This document shows, in pieces, positions 4,346-32,575 of a stretch of 41,915 bases of DNA. The stretch is from the IMG/VR virus record IMGVR_UViG_3300045806_000011, positions 1-41,915 of that record; one strand, written 5' to 3'. The notes under the pieces were generated by a model, which was not told the origin of the DNA, ran no database searches, and saw only the letters and a list, made by a program, of their open reading frames with translations. The translations under genes were made by a program, and so were the position numbers. This stretch comes from a virus. Position 1 is the first letter of the stretch, and the number at the start of each line of letters is the position of its first letter.

Positions 4346-6690
4346 TGGTTGACACTCCCGGCAAGCCGAAAGACGACGGCAAGATCAGGCTGCCGAAGGT
4401 CGATGCGGCGATGAACAAGCTCCGGCCCGCGCTGCCCAAGATCGATGACAAAGGCGCGCGGCTTGGCGCCCCGAAGGGCGAGGAAAAACGCCATCAGAAG
4501 ATACTCGCCCGCGCATTGAAGCGGTTCGACAAGGTGATTGCGGCAGAATCCGATAACCGCAAGGCCGGGCTTGATGATCGCAAGTTCAAGGCCGGCGACC
4601 AGTGGCCGAGCGAAGTCATCGCACAGCGCAATCTCGACAAGCGCCCCTGCCTGACGATCAACAAACTCCCGGTGTTCGTGCATCAGATCACGAACGATCA
4701 GAGACAGAACCGGCCGGCGATCGTGGTATCGCCCGTCGGCGACCGCGGCGACGTCGATGTCGCGAAGATGTATCGCGGCCTGATCCGGTTCATCGAGCGG
4801 GACTGCGCGGCCGATATCGCCTACGACACCGCGTTCAATGATGCGGTGACGATGGGATGGGGCTATTGGCGCGTGCTGACGGAGTGGGAGTCGCCGGATA
4901 GTTTCAACCTGGTGTTGGTCGTTCGCCGCATCCGCAACCCGTTCACGGTGTATCTCGACCCGAGCCACCAAGACCCGACCGGCGCCGATGCCAAGTGGGG
5001 ATTCATCACGGACATGGTTCCGCGCGATGAGTTCGAGGACAAGTATCCTGACGCCGACCCGATGCCGTTCGACAAGGCTGCGATCGGCGAGCAGGCGAAG
5101 AACTGGGCGACCAAGGACGAGATCAGGATCGCCGAGTATTTCGAGGTGGAATACAAGACGCGGACCCTTGTGGCGCTCGACAACGGACACGAAGGCTGGA
5201 AGGACGAACTCAGTGACGACACCCTCGCTGCGATTGAGCGCGGTGATCTGAACATTACCGACGAGCGCGAAAGCCGCGTGCCGAAGGTGATGTGGTATAA
5301 GATCACCGCGGTTGACGTGTTGGATGAACGGGAATGGATCGGGTCAACGATCCCCATCGTCAAGGTTGTCGGCGAGGAAGAAGACATCGAGGGCAAGGTC
5401 AAGTTGTCGGGCGTGATCCGGCACGCAAAAGACGCGCAACGGATGGTGAATTACTGGAAAACGGCAGAGACAGAGTTGATCGCGCTGGCACCGAAAGCGC
5501 CATTCATCGGCGAAGAAGGGCAGTTCGAGGGGCATGAAGACGAGTGGGCCAGCGCCAACGCCCGCTCTGTGCCGTTTCTTTCATACAAGGGGACGTCCTT
5601 CAACGGGCATCCGATCCCGGCGCCCCAACGTCAGGCGTTTGCAGGCGTCCCCGCCGGTGTCGTGAACGCCGCACAAGGCGCCGCCCAAGACATGATGGCC
5701 ACCACCGGCATCCGGTTCGACGCCACCCCGAATGAGCGCATGATCGATGAGAGCGGCAAGGCGATCCGCGAACTGCGGCGCTCGGGTGACATGGGCAGTT
5801 TCCACTTCATTGACAACCTGGCGCGTTCGCTGCGGCGCACGGGCGAGATCATGGTCGAGGCGATCCCGAAGGTTTACAGCGACGCCCGCACGCTGACGAT
5901 CTTGCGTGAGGACGACAAGGAAGAACAGGTCAAGATCGACCCGTCCCTGTCCAAGCCGACGGGGGAGATGCGCAAGCCGGACGGGAAGGTGATGCGGCTG
6001 TTCAACCCTAAGGTGGGCAAGTATGGCGTGACGGTGACGATCGGGCCGTCTTTCGCTACGAAGCGGATCGAGGCGAGTGAGAATATGATCTCGTTCGCCA
6101 AGGCGTTGCCGCAGACGGGCGCACTCATCGCTGATTTGATTGCGAAAAATCAGGACTGGCCTGGTGCAGAAGAGATTGCCGCGAGACTGGCGAAGACACT
6201 GCCGCCTGGCCTGTTGGCGCCAGACATGAAGGACGTTCCGCCGCAAGTTCAAGCGATCCTCCAGCAGCAGGATCAACAGGTCAAGGAGCTTGGCCAGAAG
6301 TTGCAGCAGGCGATGCTGGCGTTGAATGATAAGACACAGGACCGCGCGGCGGTTGTGGATGCGACGAACAAGCGTTTCGAGGCGGCGTTGATGAAGGTTG
6401 TCGCCGATACCGAGACGAAGATGGCTGCGATCGAGGAAAAATCACAGAGCAACTTCAATGCCCATATCGGCGCTCAGATCAAGGAACTCGGCGCCAACGT
6501 CGCGGGCCTGATCCAGTCCATCGAGCACCCGGCCAAGCCGCCCGACCAGCCGCAGCAGCAGGCCGCAGCGCCGAACCCCGGCGAACTCCCGCCCGAGGCC
6601 ATGCAACACCTATCCGACGGCCGGGCCACCACGTTCGGCAACGGCCAGAAGTGGACGCTCAAGGGCGGCAAACCGGCGAGGGTGGCATGA
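4345..6690 (+). CDS. P22-type portal protein
   Basis: The 781-residue protein forms the dodecameric ring at one capsid vertex through which DNA enters and leaves. After a basic, disordered N-terminus, residues 60-360 carry signatures of the P22 portal family: FKAGDQWP, LTINKLPVFVHQITNDQRQN, AFNDAVTMGWGYWRV, RNPFTVYLDP and EYF. The C-terminal 200 residues are helical and Gln/Ala-rich, consistent with the barrel of P22 portals, with a Pro-rich tail. P22 gp1 is 725 residues, so length fits. It lies directly upstream of scaffold and coat genes, as expected, and ends in ATGA shared with the next gene. Confidence 0.92.
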   Translation: MVDTPGKPKDDGKIRLPKVDAAMNKLRPALPKIDDKGARLGAPKGEEKRHQKILARALKRFDKVIAAESDNRKAGLDDRKFKAGDQWPSEVIAQRNLDKRPCLTINKLPVFVHQITNDQRQNRPAIVVSPVGDRGDVDVAKMYRGLIRFIERDCAADIAYDTAFNDAVTMGWGYWRVLTEWESPDSFNLVLVVRRIRNPFTVYLDPSHQDPTGADAKWGFITDMVPRDEFEDKYPDADPMPFDKAAIGEQAKNWATKDEIRIAEYFEVEYKTRTLVALDNGHEGWKDELSDDTLAAIERGDLNITDERESRVPKVMWYKITAVDVLDEREWIGSTIPIVKVVGEEEDIEGKVKLSGVIRHAKDAQRMVNYWKTAETELIALAPKAPFIGEEGQFEGHEDEWASANARSVPFLSYKGTSFNGHPIPAPQRQAFAGVPAGVVNAAQGAAQDMMATTGIRFDATPNERMIDESGKAIRELRRSGDMGSFHFIDNLARSLRRTGEIMVEAIPKVYSDARTLTILREDDKEEQVKIDPSLSKPTGEMRKPDGKVMRLFNPKVGKYGVTVTIGPSFATKRIEASENMISFAKALPQTGALIADLIAKNQDWPGAEEIAARLAKTLPPGLLAPDMKDVPPQVQAILQQQDQQVKELGQKLQQAMLALNDKTQDRAAVVDATNKRFEAALMKVVADTETKMAAIEEKSQSNFNAHIGAQIKELGANVAGLIQSIEHPAKPPDQPQQQAAAPNPGELPPEAMQHLSDGRATTFGNGQKWTLKGGKPARVA

Positions 6691-20105: not shown

Positions 20106-22124
20106 ATGGCAATCGACCCCGCGATCTCCCTCGGCTTCCAGCCGGCGCAACTCGGCCAGCAGTTCAATCCCGGCGCGACGGTCCAGGCCGCCAACAACCT
20201 CATGGCGTTCCAGCAGTCGATGCAGGCGCAGAAGTCCGCAAACGCCTTGCGCGGCATCCTGTCGCAGCCTGGCGCCGTGGATGGCACCGGCAACCCGTCC
20301 GACGACGCCATGAAGCAGATCATGGCCGTTGATCCCGGTATCGGTATGAAGTTCAAGCAAAACGCCTTGGTTGATCAGGAGCGGCAACTTCGGCTTGGTG
20401 TTTTGAAGACGGATGCGTTCGCCAAGAAGCAGGACATGATGGACGAGGGTTATGCCCCGTTGCTGGAAACCTACGAAGAAAGCATTAAGGCGGGCAAGAC
20501 GCCGGAAGCCGCGCTGGTTGAGGCACAGGATGGCTTGACCAAGGCGAATGAGCGGTTAATGCAGGGTGGGTTTCTGTCCGAAGATGAACAGAGGCGGTTG
20601 CCGACAAAGTTCGATCCGCTCCAGATGCGGCAGTATTTGGCTTCGTCGCAGCAAGTCCGGGACTGGCGGAAGGATCAGTTGCAGGAGAGGCGGCTCGACG
20701 CCACGATGCAGCACCAGCAAGATTTAGATCAGCGCGCCGACGACCGTGTGAACCGTGCCGGCTGGCAAGTCATGACCGACCCGACGGCGAAAGACAAGGA
20801 CGGCAACCCGGTCCAATATCGCTACAATGCGGGCACGGGGGAATCCACCACGCTCGCGGGCAACGAGCCGTATCATCCGGGCGGCGCGGCGAAGGTTGGC
20901 GTGGAGACAAAGGCACCCGCCGCCGGAAGTAGCGTGGCGGACAACCAATCCGTTGAAGCCGACATCAAGAAAGAACACCCGGACTGGAGCGCCGGACAGA
21001 TCGCGCTTGAGGCCAAGGCGCGCATCCGCTCTGCATCGGCGCCCAACCTTCCCGGCGATGCCCCGCTGACCGATGAGGCGATCAACTACGCCGCCGAAAT
21101 CTACCGCAAGACCGGCAACATGCCGTCGTTCGGCATGAGCAAATACGGCGCGTCCGATCGCAGGCGCATCATCAATCAGGCCGCGGGCAACGCTCGTGAT
21201 GCCGGGTCTGACGCTGGCGGCGATCTCGTTACCCGCGCCGTCATCACCGCCGACAAGGGCGCGCTCACCAAATTGACGGCGCAGAGGGCCGCCATCACCT
21301 CGTTTGAGGAAACCGCAGTCAAGAACGGCGATATCCTCGTTGATCTGGCGCAGAAGGTTGACAAGACCGGCGTTCCGGTTGTCGAGCGATGGTTGCGGGC
21401 CGGGCGGAAGTCCATTGAGGGCGACGTTGATGTGTCCAAGTTCGACGCTCAGTTGCAGCTCTACGGCACCGAAGTCGCGAAGATCATGACCAACCCGAAT
21501 CTGACGGGCGTGTTGTCGGATTCCGCGCGCAGGGAAGTCCAGGAGTTCTTGCCGAAGGGTGCCACTTACGAGCAGATCAAGGGCTTGCATGAACTGCTGA
21601 AGGGTGACTTCGGACGGCGGACGGACGCACTCAATAACGAGATTTCGTCCATCCGGACGGAAATGGGCGATGCGGCGGGCGCGGGGAAGAAGAAGGCCGA
21701 CGTCGAGACGCCAGCAAAGGCCGACGCTCCCGCGAAGGCGGCTCCGAGCACAAAGGAAATCCAGACGTTCGGCGCCACGCCGGCCGACATGGAAGCTATC
21801 TCCCAATTGCCAAAAGGCACGCGCTTCCGCGGTGCTGACGGCAAGACCTATGAAACGCATACAGACCCAAAGCCGAAATCAGCGGCGCAACCGCCCGAAG
21901 GCGGCCACCCGATCCCCGCAGATCGCGCCGGCGACAAGGACGGCACGACATACAACAACGGCCAATGGGTGAAGCGTGGCGGGTATGTGGTGCCGAACAC
22001 CGCGGCGGCGCCCGCGAAAGACGACCCGCTTGCCGCGGCACGGGCCGCCATCGCTGCCGGAGCCGACCGGGAGAAGGTGATCGCGCGATTGAAGCAGAAC
22101 AAGATTGATCCGGGGAATTTGTGA
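20106..22124 (+). CDS. Putative internal or ejection protein (672 aa)
   Basis: The ATG lies one base after the previous stop. The protein is long, mostly helical and highly charged. It opens with AISLGFQPAQLGQQFNPGAT, and its middle is rich in coiled coil (WRKDQLQERRLDATMQHQQD). The C-terminal third has KADVETPAKADAPAKAAP-type low-complexity linkers. Position between a membrane-inserting ejection protein and the giant polyvalent protein favours packaging into the virion and release with the DNA. A helical C-terminus, AIAAGADREKVIARLKQNKI, ends at a stop overlapping the giant gene's start. No enzymatic motif is recognised. Confidence 0.65.
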   Translation: MAIDPAISLGFQPAQLGQQFNPGATVQAANNLMAFQQSMQAQKSANALRGILSQPGAVDGTGNPSDDAMKQIMAVDPGIGMKFKQNALVDQERQLRLGVLKTDAFAKKQDMMDEGYAPLLETYEESIKAGKTPEAALVEAQDGLTKANERLMQGGFLSEDEQRRLPTKFDPLQMRQYLASSQQVRDWRKDQLQERRLDATMQHQQDLDQRADDRVNRAGWQVMTDPTAKDKDGNPVQYRYNAGTGESTTLAGNEPYHPGGAAKVGVETKAPAAGSSVADNQSVEADIKKEHPDWSAGQIALEAKARIRSASAPNLPGDAPLTDEAINYAAEIYRKTGNMPSFGMSKYGASDRRRIINQAAGNARDAGSDAGGDLVTRAVITADKGALTKLTAQRAAITSFEETAVKNGDILVDLAQKVDKTGVPVVERWLRAGRKSIEGDVDVSKFDAQLQLYGTEVAKIMTNPNLTGVLSDSARREVQEFLPKGATYEQIKGLHELLKGDFGRRTDALNNEISSIRTEMGDAAGAGKKKADVETPAKADAPAKAAPSTKEIQTFGATPADMEAISQLPKGTRFRGADGKTYETHTDPKPKSAAQPPEGGHPIPADRAGDKDGTTYNNGQWVKRGGYVVPNTAAAPAKDDPLAAARAAIAAGADREKVIARLKQNKIDPGNL

Positions 22125-25100
22125 TGCCGTTGGACTTTACCGACCTGATCCCGGACGCCGCTGACGACGAAGAAACCGGCCGCAAGTCATCGTTCACCCG
22201 CAATCAGGCATGGACAAAGCCGGGGCCTCGATCGTTCACCACCAAACTGCCGCCCGAGCAAGAGGCGAAGTTTCAGGCGTGGGTGAAGGACAACAAGGTT
22301 CCGTTCGAAGATGGTGAGACCGCCGACTACGATATGCGCGGCTACTGGAAGGCATCGCAGGACAAAACCGACTGGAAGCGGATGCAGAAGGCCGGGATGA
22401 TCCCCGCCGACCTGGACCCCGCCGGTACGAAGGTTGATCCGAACGACGGCAAGCCGCATTACCCCGATTACTGGAAGACGCCCTACCACGAGACGTTCTC
22501 GAACGAGAGCCAGTGGGCGGTTAAGGATAAGGCGCCGAAATGGACTGACGACGATAAGCTCGTCACGCCGGACGGCAAAGTGGTGTTCGATGATCGGGCG
22601 CGGAAGCCCGAGCCGTCGGCGCCGCTGTCGTTTGACGATCTGGTGCCGCAGAAGAAGGCCGCGCCGCCTGCGTTGGTGCCGGATACTCCGGGTGCTGCAT
22701 CGGCGCCGCCTGCGCCACCCGGAGCGCAACCATCCGGCCCCGACATGCTGACCCGCGCGACGAACGCCATTTTCGGCGACCCGACGAAGGGACCGCAACC
22801 CGACGCACTGACGCGGATAGGGAACGCCGCGGTATCCGGTGCGCGGGATGCGTGGAGCGCAAGCGGCCAGCCGAATCCGGAGACGGTTGCGGCGAACGCC
22901 AATGCAGATCGCGATTTCCCGACGTTGGCGCCCGCTATCCATGGCCTGAATTACCTCTACGACCAGTCCGGCCGGCCGCTTTCCGCAGCGTTTCGCGGCG
23001 CGCAGGCTGGCGTGGCGCAACTCGGAACCGAACTCGGATCACCGGCGCTTGGCCGCGACCTCGCCGCACTGCCGGAATCCTTGCCCGATCTGTCCCGCCC
23101 TGGTGCAGAACCTCCCCGGCCCGGCACATCGCTGACCGCGCCCGCGCGTCCGCCGGAACCGGGCGTTGCGCCTGGCGCTGGACCCGGCCCAACGCCACCC
23201 GCCCCCGCTCCCGCGCCGCTGACGTTCGCGCTACCCGCGCCCGAACCGAAGCCCGCCGCGCCGCCGGCAGAGGCACCCGCGGCGCCAACCAACCGCGTGA
23301 CCTACTTCGATCAGTCGCAGGGCGAATACGCCACCGGCACGCTGAAGGGGATGCGCCCCGACGGGATGGCCGTCGTTGACCGCGGCACCGGGGTCTACAT
23401 CTTCGTGCACCCCGGCTCGATCATTGACCAGCACGAGGCTGCGGCACCCGCCGAGCGTCCGACCAGTGCGGCACCGTCAGCGGGACCGACGCCCGCGGCT
23501 GAGACGCAGACCGCCACACTGCCGCCGTTGACGCCGGACGAGGCGCCGGTAGCGCCATCCAAGACGATCGACCTCGGCGGCAAATCACCATCCGACACGC
23601 TGAAGGACGGCAAGAACCCGCTGGAGCCATTCTTCCCGCGTGCGCCGACTGCGGACAATCCGCTGACGGTTGCGGAGATCGAGCAAGCCCGCGTTGCGGC
23701 ACAGGCGCACGTTGACGCGGAAGCCAAGAATGCGCGGGCCACGTTGGACGGCGACAAGCCCAACCCCTCCACCGCGCACGGCGGCCCGTGGACCGAGGCC
23801 GGCAAGAACGATGCCGGCGAGATGGTCTACAAGAACCCCGATGGCCGACATGCGGTGTTCGAGAACGGCATCCCGTGGGCGGAAGCGCCTGGCACGAGCG
23901 ACGACAAGCGGAAGAAACGCTACCAGATCGGGCCGGAAGGCAAGGCCGAACAGCCGACACAGACCGCAGACAAGCCAGCGGCGACCGAGCAACCTTCCCC
24001 GGTGACTACCGACGCGGCGAAGAAGCCGAAGAAGAAGCCCGGCACGACCGGCGCGACGTCGGTTGACGCGCCCGGATGGTCCTACGTTGGCGACAACGAG
24101 GACGGCCAGAAGGTCTACAAGGACCAGCGCGGCGTGCATTCCTACGTCAAGGATGGGATGCGGATCACCGAACCCGTGTCCATGAAGCCGGGCGCGAGCG
24201 GGATGGAAATCTCGGTTCCGGATGCGGACAGCAAGCCGACTGAGTTCCGCGTTGCGCCGGAGAAGGTTGTCCGTTCCGCCTCGCAGATCGCGGCAGAGGA
24301 CGGCGTTCCGTATCACGAGGCGCAGAAGATCAGGGATGCGGAGGCTGCGGAGGCGGAGAAGCCGGTTGAGTCGAAGGTTGAAACGGATGAGCGCGACCCG
24401 GACGGCCACACCACGCGCCCGTGGACTGCCAAGGACAAGGAAGACGCGGCGGGGCTGGTGAAAGCCTACGCGGATCATCCCGCCGTTGAGCGCGTGCGCA
24501 ATGCGGTGGAAGCCGGGGCGCCGGTTCTCGACATCGCGGGGAAGGGAAATCCGTTCACGCCTTGGGAAGTGCGGGCGCTGGCAGAGAATGGGGGGTGGAA
24601 GGCGAAGCCGAAGGATGAAGCCCCGGCAGATCGCACCTTCACACTGGACCCAGCAAAACTGACCGATGAACTGGCGGGCGCAACAGGCTTCTCGCGTGAG
24701 GCGGTTGCCCATGCGCGGCAGACGTTAGTGGATCACGGCGGCGACGTCCCGAAGACGCTCGGCTATCTCGACGCGGGCTACCTGAACGGCAAGATGCCGA
24801 TCGGGAAAGAGGCTGCGCAAGTCATCCGCGCGATGAAGCCTTCGATGGCGGATACCACCCCGGACCAAATCAAACCATCGGATAAGCCCGCCGGAGAAAA
24901 TCAGGCTGGCGGGGAGACGAAGGCAGCCGAACCGAAGCGCGCGGCGCCCAAGCAGGAAGCCACCCGCCCCGCCCGAACCGGGGATGCCCGACCGTCCTAC
25001 TGGATGAATGAGGGCGAGGTTGACGAAAACATCGACCGCTTCAAGAATCACCCGCTACTAGGGCAGGTGACGAACTGGCTCGGCGCTTACCGCGATGCGG

Positions 25101-28100
25101 TCAACGAGAATAGCGATGGCTGGGCGCATTTTGGCGCGAGCGTCGCCAAGCCTCTGATGGGCCTGATCCACCAGTCCGACCCGCGCAATAGCAACTACTG
25201 GACCAAGCACGGCGGGACGATTGAGGCGACCGAGGCCGAGATCAAGGCGGCGATTGCGCCGATCAAGGCGTTCGCCACCAAGCATAACCTGAATGTCCCT
25301 GCCGCACCCATTGCGGAGGCGAAGGGCAAGAAGCCCCGCGCCAAACGCACCCCAACCCCCACCATCCAGAAAATCGCCGACACCCACGGCGTAGATACGG
25401 ACGGCCTGACGACCGAGCAGATACTTGATGATGTCGTTGCATCCGCTCCGGAAGCCGCCATCAAGGCCGAGGTTGAGGCGCTTGTGGCGGATGCTGAGAC
25501 GGAGATGGAGGCGGCCGAGGATGAGGCGCGGGAGTGGATTGTTTACCATGGCACGCCGCATGATGTGGATCGGTTCTCGCTTGACAAGATCGGGACTGGC
25601 GAGGGCAATCAGGCGTTCGGGTATGGGTTGTATTTTGCGGAGAACGAGGGGGTTGCCCGATCGTATCGGGATCAGTTGTCGGGCGCTATGACACCTGAAA
25701 ATGCCGCCGCCTATCGCGCGGCGTCCGATCAATATGCCGACGCACGCAGAGAAGCCGAGGGTCTTGAAGACCTGATGGTGCATCATAGCCTTAACAAAGG
25801 CATGTCACCGGACCCCGGATGGGGCACGTTGGGAATGGAGCATCATCCCGACGTTATAAAGTTGTTTCAGCCAAAATTGGATGCGCTGCTTGCCAAGCAA
25901 GACGCTGCGACAAAAGCGATGGATGCTGCGATGTCAGCACCTCGCGCATCCGGCAACCTCTACACCGTCCGCATCGCCGTCAAGCCAGAGGAAATGCTTG
26001 ATTGGGATTCGACACTCAAAAACCAACCCGATCAGGTCCGCGAAAATCTCAAGAAGGTGGGCATTGGCCTTCCCATTGGAGGCGAGTGGGAGGAAGACCG
26101 GCCCGGAACGTGGTCCTACCGAGACAAGGATGGTAAGCCGCTGGCGCGCGTTCGGCGCAGTCAAAGCGGGAAATATTGGGCATCCGGCGGCAAGACGGAG
26201 ACGGGCGCCTACAGCTTAGACGAAGCCAAGGAAACGGCCGTTGCACTGTCCCGCGCTCTAATCGAAGGGGACGACCAGACGGGCGCGCAAATATACCACG
26301 AGGTGGTAAACAATATCGGCCTGATCCGCGAAGGCGCTGCCCAAAAAGCATCCGAGGCCCTTCACGCGGCCGGCGTCAAGGGCATCCGCTACTTTGACGC
26401 GGGCAGCCGCCGGGATGCCGAAGGCACCCGCAACGTCGTAATCTTCAACCCCGACGACATCGAGATCACCCACCGGAACGGCGAACCCGTCAAGCCGCAC
26501 GCGCCGACTGCGGCGGAAACGAAAGAGTTGACGCCGGAGCCGGCAATCACCGACATCTACCCCCGCCCGCAAGACCTAACCCCGGAAGCCGAAGCCGATG
26601 AGTTTCAACAGAACCAAGACGATGAAGATGCACAACAACGCGATGGCGGCGGCGAAGAACCCGGCGCTGCCGGAGCACATACAGGCGAAGTTCCGGAAGG
26701 TCGCGGAGAAGTCCGCGGCGGCGGTGGGGTTGATGGACGCGGTGGATCGCAAAGTGGCGCGGGACAAAAGCAACTCGGACGTGTAAAGAAGCCACAGGGG
26801 GTTGAGGATGGCCGAGGCGATGGACCCGTCAGTGGTGGCGTGGGTGAACAGGGAAGCGGCAAAACTGGCACATCAGGGGTGGGTGCCGGGAAGTCCGCGC
26901 GAAAGCGACCTAATCAAGCATTGGAGTCGTCATCGGCCGAAGATGCTGCACCAACTGGACGCGGCGAAGATGACGCAAAAGTTCGCGATGGTGCTGGAAC
27001 ACAAGCAGTATCAGGCGATGCGGCAGTACATCAAGGCGGGGATGCCTCCAACGGACGCGGACGAGCAGGCGACGAAGGAGTGGCTTCTGATGGAACCGGA
27101 AGCCGAGGACCAAAGCCCGCAACCATTCGGCCGAATTTCCACGTTGACGACCCCGAACGACTGATCGGCGGCACGCCGAAGGTCCGCTTCGCCAGGAACC
27201 GCGCCGCACTGGAAGCCCTCGAAGCGATTGAGCAGGACCAGCGCGATCCGACGCCCGAAGAACTGGAGGCAATGGCCGGTTATATCGGGTGGGGATCGTT
27301 CGGTCAGGATCTATTCCAAGGCACGTTTGAGCGGCAGATGTCGCGTCCCGGCTGGGATGCCGAGGGCAAGTGGCTCCGCGAACAGCTTGGCAAAGAGGCA
27401 TGGGAATCAGCGCAGCGGTCGATCATCAACGCCCATTACACTGATCCGCCCACAGTCATGGCCATGTGGGACATGGTTCGCCAAATGGGCTTCAAAGGCG
27501 GGCGCGTCCTGGAACCGTCGATGGGTATCGGCAACTTTTTCGGTATGATGCCGCGCGACCTGATGGCGAAAAGCACGCTGACCGGGATCGAACTGGACCG
27601 CGTAACGGGCGCTATGGCGAAGCATCTGTATCCAGATGCTGGTATCCACATCAAGGGCTACCAGGACAGCAAGACGCCCGACAATTTCTATGATCTTGTC
27701 ATTGGGAACTGGCCGTTCGCCGCCGGAAGCCCGCCGGATCGGCGATACGACAAACTTAGCCCGACGCTGCATGACTACTTCTTTCTGAAGGCGCTGGACC
27801 AGACCCGTCCGGGCGGCCTTGTGGTGGGCATCACGTCATCCGGCACAATGGACAAAGCCGGCCGCGCCGCGCGCCTGGAGATGGCGAAGAAAGGCGAATT
27901 GCTGGCCGCCTTCCGCCTGCCGTCCGGCGCGTTTGAGAAATATGCCGGGACCAGCGTGGTGACGGACATTATCATCCTGCGGAAACGCGCCGAACCGGCC
28001 GCGAATGTGACGGAAGAACCGTGGATCAATGCCACGGACATGGACACGCCATACGGGCAGGCTATCCGCGTCAACGACTACTTTCAGAACCGGCCCGACG

Positions 28101-31100
28101 CAGTTCTGGGGCAACTCGATTTCGGCCACGGCACCACGCAGGGCCGGGCGGGCATGATCGTTCATCGGCCCGACAATCTGCTGACCCGGCTGCAAGGACT
28201 TGCCGCGCGACTGCCGGAGGACGGCTATCAGCCCGTGATCCGCGGCAAGGAGCCTCGCTTCCTCATCAACAACACAACCGACCGCCAGGGTAGCGTCACC
28301 ATCGGCGATGACGGCAAGCTCTATCAGGTCCAAGGCGAACGGCTGGCGCTGCTGGAGGATGTGCATAAGGGCATGAAGGCCGGCACGGCGAAGATACAGA
28401 AGGCGCGTGAAGATCAAGTCCGCCGCATGGTCGGGATGCGCAAGGCTTACGGCGCACTGATCGACGCGGAGCGCGACGGCAAACCGGAAGCCGAGACGCT
28501 ACGCAAGGCGCTGGCAAAGCAGTATGGCGAGTTCAAGGATCAGCACGGCACGATTGGCGAATCGGACGGCTTGAAGGTTCTCCGGCTCATCAAAGACCCG
28601 GCACACCCCGCGCTTCAATCGCTGGAACGGCCGGACGGTGAACCGTCCCGCATCCTGACGGAACCAACCATCCGGTCCAAGCGATCGCTCGATAAGCCAT
28701 CGGTCGCCGAAGCCTATGTGCTGGCCCGGAATGAGCAGGCCAACTTCGATATGGATCGCGTTGCCGAATTGGCGAAGACGACGCGCGAAAAGGCAGAGGC
28801 ACATCTACTCGAAACCGGCGCGGTGCTGCGGGCGCCCGGCAGCAGCTTCGAGCCTGCCGACATCTATCTGTCCGGCAACGTCAGGCGGAAGTTGCTGGAG
28901 GCCAAGGAGGCGCTTGCCAACGGCGAGGATATGCAGGCGTCCATCGACGCGCTGACGAAGGCACTGCCGCCGACGGTGCCATACTATCAGGTGGAGGCGA
29001 AACTCGGCGCTCCGTGGGTAGGTGATGCTGCTTATAAGGCGTTCATCGGCGATCTGTTGGGGCTGTCGCCAGAGGATCGCAACGACATCCATGTACGGTT
29101 CGCCGGAAGCCGCTGGAAGGTGACGTTCGCCGCTCAGTACCTCAACCACAAGCCCGAAGCCACGTCGGTATGGGGGCATCACAAATACCCCTTCAACAAA
29201 CTCATCATGGCGGCGATGGGCAACAACGTCGTCCAGATCAAATCAAAGAACGATGACGGCGACAATGTTTTTGATCCAAAACTGACGGAGGAAGTGAACG
29301 CCAAAATCCAGGCGTTGCGCGAGAAGTTCCAGGATTGGGCATGGCAAGACCCGGAGCGGAAGATTGCCTTTGAGGCCGCCTACAACGATGTGATGAACGC
29401 GATTGCCAAGCCGCAGTTTGATGGCTCGTTCATGGACATGTCGGGCATGGCGCTGCGGCGTGGTGATGACCCGTTCTCGCTGCGCCGACACCAGATCAAC
29501 GCCATTTGGCGAGGCGTGATCCAGGGACGCGGCCTGTTCGCCCATGAGGTCGGGACCGGGAAGACCTACACGATGGGCGGTATCGCCGTCGAAGGGCGCC
29601 GGTATGGCGTGTTCCGCAAGCCGCTGATCTTCGCGCACAACGCCAACAGCGCGTCAGTTGCCAAGGAGATCGGCGACATGTATCCGGGCGGCAAGTTCCT
29701 CTACATCGACAATCTGGCGCCCGATGTCATCGCCACGACGCTGCACCGGATCGCCAACGAGGATTGGGACGCGGTTGTCATGCCGCACAGCCTGATTGAC
29801 CGCATGGCGCTCACGCGGGAGACGCTACACGAACTGGCGGCCGAGCAAATCGCCGAATTGGAGAATGAGGCGATCGAGGCGGCGAAGGAAGACGGCATCA
29901 ACCTGACGCCCCAGATGATGGACGACGACGAGGCAATGAAGAAGGTTCGCAGCGTCACCGCGAAACAGTTGGTGAAGCAGCGGCAGAACATCCTGGACAA
30001 CATCGAGAAGCAGGGGAATCGGAGTTCAAAGGAAGGCGCGGTTTCGTTTGAGAAGTTGGGCGTTGATGCGATCGTCGTGGACGAGGCCCATGAGTTCAAA
30101 AAGCCCCCGATCGCTACTAGAATGCAACTAAAAGGTCTGAATACTCAAACCAGTAACCGCTCTATCGCGTTGAATTTCCTCACGCAATACGTGAAGAAAC
30201 AGAACGCGGGGAAGGGCGTCTATCTGTTCACCGGCACGCCGGTAACGAACAGTCTGAACGAAATCTTCAACATGTCCCGATACTTCATGGATGACCGCAT
30301 GGGGCAGAGTGGCATCAAGGATTGGGATACGTGGTTCAACACGTTCGCCGACGCGATGACGGATGTGGAGTTGACCGCGGCAGGAACCTACGAACCGGTC
30401 AAGCGGCTGTCCGCTTTCGTCAACGTGGATGAGTTGGTCCGCATGATGTCGGAATACACCGACGTTGTGCAGGCCAAGGAAATGCCCGAGTTTGTGCCGC
30501 GCGCCACAAAATCAGGGAAGACCCTGGCCTCGCCTGATTTGACGCCGGATGAAATGGACTACCTCACCAATGGTCGGATGGAGAACCCGGAAGGGCGGCC
30601 ATACAAAAAGGTGGTGACGGACGTTGGCGAGATGTCGCCCGATCAGAAGGACATCCTGGCGACACTGCGGGAGCGGAGCGAGTATTTTAAGAACGCTTCG
30701 CGCAAAGAGCGTAAGGAGATGATGCTGAAGGGCGATGAGCGAACGCCAATCCGGGTTGAGACGGATGCGGCCAATGCCAGCCTTGACGCCCGGATGTATG
30801 ATGAGGAAGCGCCGGACTTCGATGGTGGCAAGGCCACGCGCGTCGTCAAGAACGTGATGAAGCACTACGCCGAGGACAAGGCGGCACAGGTGATCTTCGT
30901 TGATCGCGGCGACAATCCTGGCGTCCGGTCTAATTTCGTCCTGATGCAAGACCTCATAAAGAAGCTGGTGGATGGTGGCGTTCCCCGCGGCGAGATCGCC
31001 ATCGTTGGCGGCGGCATGGACGCCAAGAAGAAAAAGGAAGTCGCCGACGCGATGAACAGCGGCAAAATCCGCGTCGTCATCGGGAAAAGCAGCACGCTCG

Positions 31101-32575
31101 GTGTTGGCGTGAATATGCAGCGGTATTTGCGCGCCATGCACCATCTGGACGCGCCGTGGCGTCCTGGCGATCTGGAGCAGCGCAACGGACGCGGCGAGCG
31201 GCAGGGCAACGAGTGGAATACCGTCCTTGAATATCGCTACGTCACCGAGGGCATCGACGGGCGCCGCTGGCAGGTTTTGACCAGCAAGGACAAGTTTATC
31301 AAGCAGTTCATCGGCGCCTTCAACGACGATAGCGGCAAGCGCATCGGCAACATCGAGGGGGATGCGGCGGATATCTCCGACGACGAGGATATCATGCAGA
31401 CGCTTTCCGCAGCGGCCGGCGATCCTCGCATCATGTTGCGCGCTAAATACAAGGCCGACGTTGAGCGGATGGAGCGCCGCGAGCGGATGCACACAGTCGG
31501 TCAGGCCGAGGCTGTCCAGCGGGCACGGCAACTGCGGAGTAACCTGGAGCACTATTCGGCCAGTGCCGATCGTATTGGCGGGCTGGCGAAGATATGGGCG
31601 GCGTCCGTTGACCGCATGGAAGCGGCGGCGCGCGAGGCAAAGGATACACACCGCTGGTATGAGGCAACGGTTGACGGCAAGGAGTTGCGCCTCGGTGCCG
31701 AAATCCAAGAGGCGATTGACGCCAAGGTTCGCGGCTTGGTTCGCGGCGAGGAAACAGAGATCGCCACGGTTGGCGGCTTCAAGGTCATTGCCGATTGGCG
31801 GTCGCGGTATGCGGCGGAACCGAACTACAGCGTTGCCGATGCCGACGGGAACGATGTCGCCCCGCTCACCGGGCCGGGCATCAGGTTCATCGCCAATGCC
31901 TTGAACCGACTTCGCGGAGAAAGCGAGAATTACATTCAGATGGCGAGCGAGGCGAAGGCGTCAATCCCGGCGATGGACGCGGCCGGCAAGCAGGATTTCC
32001 CGCAGCAGGGCAAATTGGACAAACTTCGTCAGCAATTCAGCCGCCTGGAAAGCGACCTCCAATCAAACCCGATCCCGCCGCCATCTTGGCTGCGGCACGG
32101 AGCGGCGATCGACAGCGACATCTACGTTGACGGAAAGCCGCGCACGGTGCGTGGGCACCGGATGGATGACGATTACTATCTCGTCACCGACGAAGGCGAA
32201 GTGCCGTATATGGACGCCAAGGACGTGAACGGCCTGCCGATCTACGAGGCGCACCCGGCGCCGGAAGGCGTGGAACAGATGCGGTTCCGGCGCGACTTCG
32301 GAGAAGATGACGGCGGCACGGCGCTTCGCGACGACGTTGCCTTCGCTGTTCGGTTGAGTAGCGATCATTCTACCCACGAGTTCGAGCGCGGATATGAAGC
32401 CAAGCCCGAAGACGCCGTGGAGTCCGAGTATCGGAAGGGGCGCCATTGGGTAAGGGTTGCGCCGCCGAAGGGGGAGAAGTGGAGCCGCGATCAGGCGATA
32501 GATGCTGCGATCCGTGATGCGTTCCCGAAAGAGAAGGCGGCCAAGAAACCAAATCCTAGCCCCGCACCAAAATAA
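22124..32575 (+). CDS. Giant polyvalent protein: ART, N6-methylase-like and SNF2-like helicase (DarB-like)
   Basis: About 3,483 residues; GTG 22121 is an alternative start. N-terminal 1-700: virion-protein-like segments (PYHETFSNESQWA near 121) and a duplicated module (GPWTEAGKNDAGEMVYKNPD near 553, PGWSYVGDNEDGQKVYKDQR near 650). About 1140-1445: ADP-ribosyltransferase of the polyvalent type (VYHGTPHDVDRFS, FGYGLYFAEN, ASEALHAAGVKGIRYFDAGS). About 1487-1680: low-complexity linker. About 1690-1900: methylase with VLEPSMGIGNFFG and an NPPF-like GNWPF. About 2450-3050: helicase with Walker A HEVGTGKT, DEAH, TGTP and QRNGRGERQGN. Such proteins (for example P1 DarB) enter with phage DNA and counter host restriction. 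Two other genes overlap the linker. Confidence 0.85.
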   Translation: MPLDFTDLIPDAADDEETGRKSSFTRNQAWTKPGPRSFTTKLPPEQEAKFQAWVKDNKVPFEDGETADYDMRGYWKASQDKTDWKRMQKAGMIPADLDPAGTKVDPNDGKPHYPDYWKTPYHETFSNESQWAVKDKAPKWTDDDKLVTPDGKVVFDDRARKPEPSAPLSFDDLVPQKKAAPPALVPDTPGAASAPPAPPGAQPSGPDMLTRATNAIFGDPTKGPQPDALTRIGNAAVSGARDAWSASGQPNPETVAANANADRDFPTLAPAIHGLNYLYDQSGRPLSAAFRGAQAGVAQLGTELGSPALGRDLAALPESLPDLSRPGAEPPRPGTSLTAPARPPEPGVAPGAGPGPTPPAPAPAPLTFALPAPEPKPAAPPAEAPAAPTNRVTYFDQSQGEYATGTLKGMRPDGMAVVDRGTGVYIFVHPGSIIDQHEAAAPAERPTSAAPSAGPTPAAETQTATLPPLTPDEAPVAPSKTIDLGGKSPSDTLKDGKNPLEPFFPRAPTADNPLTVAEIEQARVAAQAHVDAEAKNARATLDGDKPNPSTAHGGPWTEAGKNDAGEMVYKNPDGRHAVFENGIPWAEAPGTSDDKRKKRYQIGPEGKAEQPTQTADKPAATEQPSPVTTDAAKKPKKKPGTTGATSVDAPGWSYVGDNEDGQKVYKDQRGVHSYVKDGMRITEPVSMKPGASGMEISVPDADSKPTEFRVAPEKVVRSASQIAAEDGVPYHEAQKIRDAEAAEAEKPVESKVETDERDPDGHTTRPWTAKDKEDAAGLVKAYADHPAVERVRNAVEAGAPVLDIAGKGNPFTPWEVRALAENGGWKAKPKDEAPADRTFTLDPAKLTDELAGATGFSREAVAHARQTLVDHGGDVPKTLGYLDAGYLNGKMPIGKEAAQVIRAMKPSMADTTPDQIKPSDKPAGENQAGGETKAAEPKRAAPKQEATRPARTGDARPSYWMNEGEVDENIDRFKNHPLLGQVTNWLGAYRDAVNENSDGWAHFGASVAKPLMGLIHQSDPRNSNYWTKHGGTIEATEAEIKAAIAPIKAFATKHNLNVPAAPIAEAKGKKPRAKRTPTPTIQKIADTHGVDTDGLTTEQILDDVVASAPEAAIKAEVEALVADAETEMEAAEDEAREWIVYHGTPHDVDRFSLDKIGTGEGNQAFGYGLYFAENEGVARSYRDQLSGAMTPENAAAYRAASDQYADARREAEGLEDLMVHHSLNKGMSPDPGWGTLGMEHHPDVIKLFQPKLDALLAKQDAATKAMDAAMSAPRASGNLYTVRIAVKPEEMLDWDSTLKNQPDQVRENLKKVGIGLPIGGEWEEDRPGTWSYRDKDGKPLARVRRSQSGKYWASGGKTETGAYSLDEAKETAVALSRALIEGDDQTGAQIYHEVVNNIGLIREGAAQKASEALHAAGVKGIRYFDAGSRRDAEGTRNVVIFNPDDIEITHRNGEPVKPHAPTAAETKELTPEPAITDIYPRPQDLTPEAEADEFQQNQDDEDAQQRDGGGEEPGAAGAHTGEVPEGRGEVRGGGGVDGRGGSQSGAGQKQLGRVKKPQGVEDGRGDGPVSGGVGEQGSGKTGTSGVGAGKSARKRPNQALESSSAEDAAPTGRGEDDAKVRDGAGTQAVSGDAAVHQGGDASNGRGRAGDEGVASDGTGSRGPKPATIRPNFHVDDPERLIGGTPKVRFARNRAALEALEAIEQDQRDPTPEELEAMAGYIGWGSFGQDLFQGTFERQMSRPGWDAEGKWLREQLGKEAWESAQRSIINAHYTDPPTVMAMWDMVRQMGFKGGRVLEPSMGIGNFFGMMPRDLMAKSTLTGIELDRVTGAMAKHLYPDAGIHIKGYQDSKTPDNFYDLVIGNWPFAAGSPPDRRYDKLSPTLHDYFFLKALDQTRPGGLVVGITSSGTMDKAGRAARLEMAKKGELLAAFRLPSGAFEKYAGTSVVTDIIILRKRAEPAANVTEEPWINATDMDTPYGQAIRVNDYFQNRPDAVLGQLDFGHGTTQGRAGMIVHRPDNLLTRLQGLAARLPEDGYQPVIRGKEPRFLINNTTDRQGSVTIGDDGKLYQVQGERLALLEDVHKGMKAGTAKIQKAREDQVRRMVGMRKAYGALIDAERDGKPEAETLRKALAKQYGEFKDQHGTIGESDGLKVLRLIKDPAHPALQSLERPDGEPSRILTEPTIRSKRSLDKPSVAEAYVLARNEQANFDMDRVAELAKTTREKAEAHLLETGAVLRAPGSSFEPADIYLSGNVRRKLLEAKEALANGEDMQASIDALTKALPPTVPYYQVEAKLGAPWVGDAAYKAFIGDLLGLSPEDRNDIHVRFAGSRWKVTFAAQYLNHKPEATSVWGHHKYPFNKLIMAAMGNNVVQIKSKNDDGDNVFDPKLTEEVNAKIQALREKFQDWAWQDPERKIAFEAAYNDVMNAIAKPQFDGSFMDMSGMALRRGDDPFSLRRHQINAIWRGVIQGRGLFAHEVGTGKTYTMGGIAVEGRRYGVFRKPLIFAHNANSASVAKEIGDMYPGGKFLYIDNLAPDVIATTLHRIANEDWDAVVMPHSLIDRMALTRETLHELAAEQIAELENEAIEAAKEDGINLTPQMMDDDEAMKKVRSVTAKQLVKQRQNILDNIEKQGNRSSKEGAVSFEKLGVDAIVVDEAHEFKKPPIATRMQLKGLNTQTSNRSIALNFLTQYVKKQNAGKGVYLFTGTPVTNSLNEIFNMSRYFMDDRMGQSGIKDWDTWFNTFADAMTDVELTAAGTYEPVKRLSAFVNVDELVRMMSEYTDVVQAKEMPEFVPRATKSGKTLASPDLTPDEMDYLTNGRMENPEGRPYKKVVTDVGEMSPDQKDILATLRERSEYFKNASRKERKEMMLKGDERTPIRVETDAANASLDARMYDEEAPDFDGGKATRVVKNVMKHYAEDKAAQVIFVDRGDNPGVRSNFVLMQDLIKKLVDGGVPRGEIAIVGGGMDAKKKKEVADAMNSGKIRVVIGKSSTLGVGVNMQRYLRAMHHLDAPWRPGDLEQRNGRGERQGNEWNTVLEYRYVTEGIDGRRWQVLTSKDKFIKQFIGAFNDDSGKRIGNIEGDAADISDDEDIMQTLSAAAGDPRIMLRAKYKADVERMERRERMHTVGQAEAVQRARQLRSNLEHYSASADRIGGLAKIWAASVDRMEAAAREAKDTHRWYEATVDGKELRLGAEIQEAIDAKVRGLVRGEETEIATVGGFKVIADWRSRYAAEPNYSVADADGNDVAPLTGPGIRFIANALNRLRGESENYIQMASEAKASIPAMDAAGKQDFPQQGKLDKLRQQFSRLESDLQSNPIPPPSWLRHGAAIDSDIYVDGKPRTVRGHRMDDDYYLVTDEGEVPYMDAKDVNGLPIYEAHPAPEGVEQMRFRRDFGEDDGGTALRDDVAFAVRLSSDHSTHEFERGYEAKPEDAVESEYRKGRHWVRVAPPKGEKWSRDQAIDAAIRDAFPKEKAAKKPNPSPAPK
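26598..26786 (+). CDS. Overprinted small basic protein inside the giant gene (62 aa)
   Basis: In a different frame from the giant gene, ATG 26598 to TAA 26786 encodes a normal-looking helical basic protein (MSFNRTKTMKMHNNAMAAAK, then ALPEHIQAKFRKVAEKSAA). By hand count, 56 of 62 codons end in G or C, while the giant frame over the same bases has only 25 of 63, so this frame looks like the older or stronger coding one. In the giant protein the same bases make a Gly/Asp/Gln-rich linker. The ribosome site is weak (CCGGAAGCCG). No family is recognised. Confidence 0.7.
   Translation: MSFNRTKTMKMHNNAMAAAKNPALPEHIQAKFRKVAEKSAAAVGLMDAVDRKVARDKSNSDV
26808..27164 (+). CDS. Second overprinted protein inside the giant gene (118 aa)
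   Basis: ATG 26808 lies 21 bases after the previous stop in the same frame, preceded by the G-rich ribosome-site-like AGGGGGTTGAGG (26796-26807). The product is an ordinary helical protein (DPSVVAWVNREAAKLAHQGW, SDLIKHWSRHRPKMLHQL, AMRQYIKAGMPPTDADEQAT). About 90 of 118 codons end in G or C by hand count. It ends at 27164, almost exactly where the methylase part of the giant protein becomes recognisable. Function unknown. It is either a real nested gene or an ancestral gene that the giant frame now reads through. Confidence 0.75.
   Translation: MAEAMDPSVVAWVNREAAKLAHQGWVPGSPRESDLIKHWSRHRPKMLHQLDAAKMTQKFAMVLEHKQYQAMRQYIKAGMPPTDADEQATKEWLLMEPEAEDQSPQPFGRISTLTTPND

Follow-up and report, generated by a model that had tools for sequence, protein, structure and literature searches.

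Evidence for a conserved small gene nested in the linker of a giant DarB-like phage gene

Introduction

DarB-like polyvalent proteins (phrog_10089), among them DarB of phage P1, have been reported (Iyer 2017, PMC5512222) in a paper from whose main text the word 'overlap' is absent. In P1, small helper proteins place DarB in the capsid (PMC9024508), and Ulx, which is encoded beside darB, appears in a table of the same paper with the entry 'Aids DarB localization'. Nested overlapping genes are also known from phages, an example being Rz1 inside Rz of lambda (PMC9409062).

Here we analyzed a virus sequence of 41,915 bases, hereafter the window, which is the whole source record and carries terminase, portal, scaffold, tail-fibre and head-closure genes. 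Its giant gene belongs to the DarB-like polyvalent group and very probably contains a small gene in another frame of its linker. The arrangement would resemble the lambda pair in that a complete gene lies within another one, in a different frame and with its own start. Rz1 is a spanin lipoprotein, whereas the protein nested here is a predicted helical bundle, and the outer frame, unlike that of Rz, appears to be a linker under no amino-acid constraint within a giant antirestriction protein. P1 DarB differs from the giant protein of the window in having no long upstream half. Ulx and the small protein are both small and encoded with a darB-type gene, and they possibly do the same kind of job, but ulx follows darB as a gene of its own and is not nested.

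Results

The giant gene of the window (positions 22121 to 32575, plus strand) encodes 3484 aa with an ART-like domain, a methylase and an SNF2-type helicase. Pfam ART-PolyVal was matched at about 25538 to 25684, and a weak RES-like tail reaches about 26470. The methylase part begins at 27161 (PHROG 10089, that is phrog_10089, E 8e-153; its start spans 27161 to 28500 on the plus strand), and the helicase domains were recognized as Helicase_C (2.4e-6) and ResIII (7.2e-5). As in a DarB-like gene, the methylase part is followed by an SF2 helicase. The Gly/Asp/Ala-rich linker at 26590 to 27160 (plus strand) is stop-free and contains 45 Gly; its entropy of 3.52 bits is below the giant-gene median of 3.98, in agreement with the open, low-complexity frame noticed in a preliminary description of this DNA, and its amino acids appear unconstrained as measured in relatives.

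The preliminary description had placed two small ORFs over this linker, and we recovered both at the same coordinates, 26598 to 26786 (62 aa) and 26808 to 27164 (118 aa). They lie on the plus strand, wholly within the giant ORF and offset from it by +1, and the giant frame is free of stops across both. The G/C content at third positions, which had been counted by hand, was reproduced at 0.90 for the first ORF and 0.76 for the second, against 0.41 and 0.43 for the giant frame over the same bases. The codon scores in the +1 frame were 0.356 and 0.200, respectively, while none of 514 open +1 windows taken from the rest of the giant gene exceeded 0.014. The second ORF is preceded by a Shine-Dalgarno region at 26788 to 26807 (gggggttgagg, plus strand), whose duplex energy of -10.1 kcal/mol bears out the strong ribosome site assigned to it earlier; the site of the first ORF is weak (-3.5 kcal/mol).

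The preliminary description had also argued that a giant frame kept free of stops over both ORFs indicates their expression. When synonymous codons were redrawn using the window's own codon usage, the giant frame was open by chance with P 0.05 given the first small protein and P 0.025 given the second, and the +1 frame was open by chance with P 0.84 and 0.54, respectively, given the giant protein. In this single sequence the argument is therefore weak, and the double openness is only suggestive of genes; the codon scores are more telling than the openness statistics. For the second ORF, both frames are maintained in relatives, as described below.

The first ORF is coding-like, and we found no homologue of it in scans of viral contigs or among the collected loci, including 31 ART-region loci examined by translated search. 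We judge the chance that it is a second overprinted gene to be slightly better than even. Of the two overprinted genes claimed earlier, only the second proved to be conserved in frame and place.

When viral contigs were scanned with each small protein by itself, no relatives came up, and a profile search was needed. A translated search with the second small protein matched solely the Pseudomonas phages USP_18 and USP_25 (35.9% identity, E 7e-6), and the USP_25 match sits in the +1 frame of an annotated giant gene of 4899 aa. Among giants collected through their methylase part, all 13 carry a +1 ORF of about 100 codons at the same place; a 150-aa partial match without a readable linker was dropped from this set. 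In the alignment of the small proteins, Trp, Gly, Asp and Ala columns are invariant and conservation extends along the whole length. A profile built from 25 relatives, with the window excluded, found the ORF at 26808 to 27164 with 69.7 bits (E 1.1e-19), and this ORF likewise immediately precedes the methylase part, in +1 relative to a DarB-like giant frame that is open.

A search by the small protein alone imposes no selection for an open giant frame. It returned 20 viral loci and 7 genome loci, duplicated contigs being kept (12 of the 20 repeat earlier loci, and L036 is a repeat of L021). The small gene is overprinted at 20 of the 20 viral loci, 12 of which were already in the methylase-derived set and 8 of which were new, and at 4 of the 7 genome loci, so that 12 of the 15 new loci have the same +1 arrangement. 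The three genome loci lacking it are a tRNA-side relic in Rhodoblastus (L037) and fragments in Skermanella (L038 and L039). In samples of genomes, the profile was positive in 1 of 396, 2 of 397 and 3 of 299, tallies that include already-known carriers; the new copies (L102 and L105) are both overprinted in +1. Neither this family, group A, nor the group B family described below was matched in plasmids.

In the Rhodoblastus locus (L037:5968-6345) the small gene stands alone beside tRNA-Thr with no adjacent methylase, and the giant frame has two stops. Its small frame looks constrained when compared with its second copy, L088 (NN/SN 0.36), and the locus is either a relic or a rescued gene. In the Skermanella locus at a contig end (L038:5692-6592), the small protein is in frame with the following polyvalent-type domain.

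An ORF at the same place and in the same frame was also found in PEp14, Itty13, SopranoGao, Atu_ph08, POI1126, VvAW1 and a Microcystis phage (group B). The group A profile matched these ORFs weakly (E 1e-4 to 0.012), the group B profile matched the small protein of the window (E 1.5e-4), and the profile-profile comparison of the two groups gave a probability of 94.8 (E 5.5e-8). Lessieviruses (group C) also have a +1 ORF, which hhalign compared with groups A and B at a probability of 11 (E 0.0027). By protein similarity alone, the profiles of these two further groups collected 74 loci (duplicated contigs, among them IMG/VR copies of named phages, were again kept), of which 73 are overprinted in +1; the sole exception, L112, looks like a broken prophage remnant. 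Counted together, nested small ORFs of this kind occur in about 100 phage contigs: 27 belong to group A, and the two other profiles contribute the 73 overprinted loci.

Among 22 phage records examined out of 101, plus USP_25, a +1 ORF is present in 17 of the 22: 11 of the A/B family including PBC5, four Lessieviruses, Y7 and 8P. Four DarB-like genes from the human gut (L046 and L095 to L097) have no such ORF, which indicates that a methylase giant can dispense with the small gene. The one remaining record, that of Dolichospermum phage Dfl-JY45 (L098), is ambiguous: its DarB-like gene has a different long +1 ORF near the N-terminal end, within the roughly 900 bases that precede position 2501. 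None of the annotated records examined lists the small ORF as a gene of its own, and we found no paper on this overlap in the open-access literature; the family has been unlisted so far because the gene lies wholly within another gene.

PBC5 (L045:1635-1943 and L100) carries the small protein as the C-terminal end of orf33, its upstream half, and both are read in one frame. This C-terminus (phrog_938 positions 2084-2185) is homologous to group B, whose small proteins were matched solely by phrog_938. PBC5 differs in that the methylase is a separate gene, the frame of which stays open across the small protein, and the arrangement is either a real split or an old sequencing error. A stand-alone small gene between separate intact upstream and methylase genes, which the preliminary description had proposed to look for, was not found among related phages, and the copies without a full giant gene are only relics or fragments (L037, L112, L038 and L039) and PBC5. 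As a candidate stand-alone homologue, P1 ulx was rejected: it lies downstream of darB and no profile matched it, the three small-family profiles giving E 0.66, 0.17 and 0.37 for Ulx in a three-protein database.

The earlier description had further claimed that the small ORFs fill the space between the end of the ART domain and the start of the methylase domain. This holds roughly in the window, and relatives agree on the methylase side, the small gene being constant beside the methylase part. On the ART side the claim does not hold generally, as the preceding domain varies and relatives have other sequences there.

The small starts in relatives have strong ribosome sites, with a mean of -6.2 kcal/mol for 38 starts against -2.3 kcal/mol for 3354 control ATGs (p 5.6e-15). 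The predicted structure has five helices, with a mean pLDDT of 78.7 for the small protein of the window and 79.5 for one relative. Foldseek against PDB gave a best E of 5.4 and no match at E <=0.001, and the best VIA-align Z of 6.0, to 2apl, means little when the model is helical. Q8W6J4, the best structural match, is perhaps PBC5 orf33, an identity that we infer. Sequence searches of PDB with the small protein gave nothing convincing, 14 family members had no match above chance in Pfam, PHROGs and NCBIfam, and weak TnpV matches fell below the Pfam cut-off.

Constraint on each frame was measured in relatives, since we found nothing closely related to the copy in the window, which is absent from the pairs. 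In all 20 pairs, divergence within the overlap peaks at position 3 of the small codons, which is position 1 of the giant codons; downstream, in the methylase part, it peaks at giant position 3, again in 20 of 20. Pooled over seven pairs without shared sequences, dNN/dSN of the small frame was 0.37 [0.29-0.48] and dNN/dNS of the giant frame over the small gene was 1.35 [1.09-1.71]. Eleven pairs were also considered singly. In groups B and C the small-frame ratios were 0.08-0.55, and in some of these pairs the giant-frame ratio was also below 1 (0.21-0.89), so that the giant linker may be under weak constraint there.

Where a small codon ends in a pyrimidine and AA, AG or GA follows, a T as that last base stops the giant frame. 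Such codons are absent from the small frame in the group A set (0 of 296 versus 137 of 495 elsewhere) and in the other groups (0 of 768 versus 380 of 1534 elsewhere). As the sequences compared are related, p-values from such comparisons overstate independence. From the divergence ratios and the absence of giant stops, selection appears to preserve the amino acids of the small frame and, in the giant frame there, only its openness. The comparison of synonymous and nonsynonymous change in each frame, suggested in the preliminary description, thus found constraint on both frames in relatives, on amino acids in the small frame and against stops in the giant one. Because relatives conserve the protein, its place and its frame, the ORF at 26808 to 27164 is very probably a genuine coding gene that overlaps the giant's linker in +1.

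Discussion

The order in which linker and small gene arose is a question of origin, and either answer is compatible with a nested gene. If the linker came first, the small gene would have been added later, de novo, by overprinting, and we hold this to be a serious possibility, if somewhat short of an even chance. The small gene is almost never seen without the giant (73 of 74 loci, and 20 of 20 viral loci from the group A search), and the gut DarB-like genes have the linker and no small gene. On the other hand, the codon usage of the small frame is nearer to that of the rest of the giant gene than is the usage of the linker's own giant frame at 32 of 38 loci. An overlapping frame whose usage is nearer to its surroundings is taken as the older one, so this result favors a native small frame and a later fusion, and an origin of the giant gene by reading through an intervening gene is plausible. 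Given that gut phages lack the ORF and that no true stand-alone copies were found, either order of origin is possible.

A wider proposal, which we consider rather unlikely though worth stating, is that in proteobacterial and cyanobacterial phages the DarB-type giants arose by read-through across an unrelated gene that was intact and in another frame, and that would have survived as an obligate partner, for example in capsid loading. If so, one stretch of DNA would encode the linker together with its own escort. The giant frame there would be neutral read-through, and fusion through a gene would be a new route to very large proteins. It is now testable whether fusion across an intervening gene can give rise to giant polyvalent proteins.

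The small protein might instead be the tail of a frameshift product, made by slippage from the upstream half of the giant into +1. The constant +1 frame would suit such a mechanism, as would PBC5, in which the upstream half and the small protein share a frame. However, the open stretch of small frame ahead of the start is a single codon in L026 and two codons in L043, L049, L093 and L099, and 15 of 38 loci have at most nine open codons there, hardly room for a slip site; the strong ribosome sites also speak for initiation at the small starts, and we consider frameshifting very unlikely. Even less probable is that the small ORF merely controls translation of the giant, internal initiation slowing or splitting it and the protein being irrelevant: strong ribosome sites within the giant gene are what this would require, but the protein is conserved over its length with its invariant Trp, Gly, Asp and Ala, and nonsynonymous change is suppressed. 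A non-coding +1 ORF that merely results from the G/C-rich, low-complexity make-up of the linker can practically be dismissed, for although its openness in one sequence is expected by chance given the giant protein (P 0.54-0.84), small-frame amino acids are conserved over distant phages under purifying selection and behind ribosome sites, and it is the giant frame that shows no restraint on amino-acid change.

If the ORF is a nested gene, its translation would begin at an internal site of the giant mRNA, or of the operon mRNA, and yield a helical protein of about 100 aa in addition to the giant protein, while the giant frame over it would serve as a flexible linker needing only openness. The small protein might help to place the giant in the virion, or hold it inactive until injection. 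As the small gene stays by the methylase part and small helpers place DarB in P1, we tentatively suggest, by analogy with Ulx and below an even chance, that it encodes a partner dedicated to the methylase-helicase giant. Knockout and proteomic studies of DarB-like giants have so far been interpreted without this protein, and changes to the linker would affect two proteins. The locus would also be an unusually clean natural example of overlapping frames under different constraint, on amino acids in one and solely against stops in the other.

Annotations around two of these giants were also noted. In the record of Pseudomonas phage Itty13 (L044), the annotated genes and the DarB-like giant frame are on different strands; this frame has no stop anywhere in the locus, and the record seems to be mis-annotated there. 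In the JC1 record, terminators are annotated on the opposite strand inside the DarB-like gene (L091:141-186 and 4780-4820).
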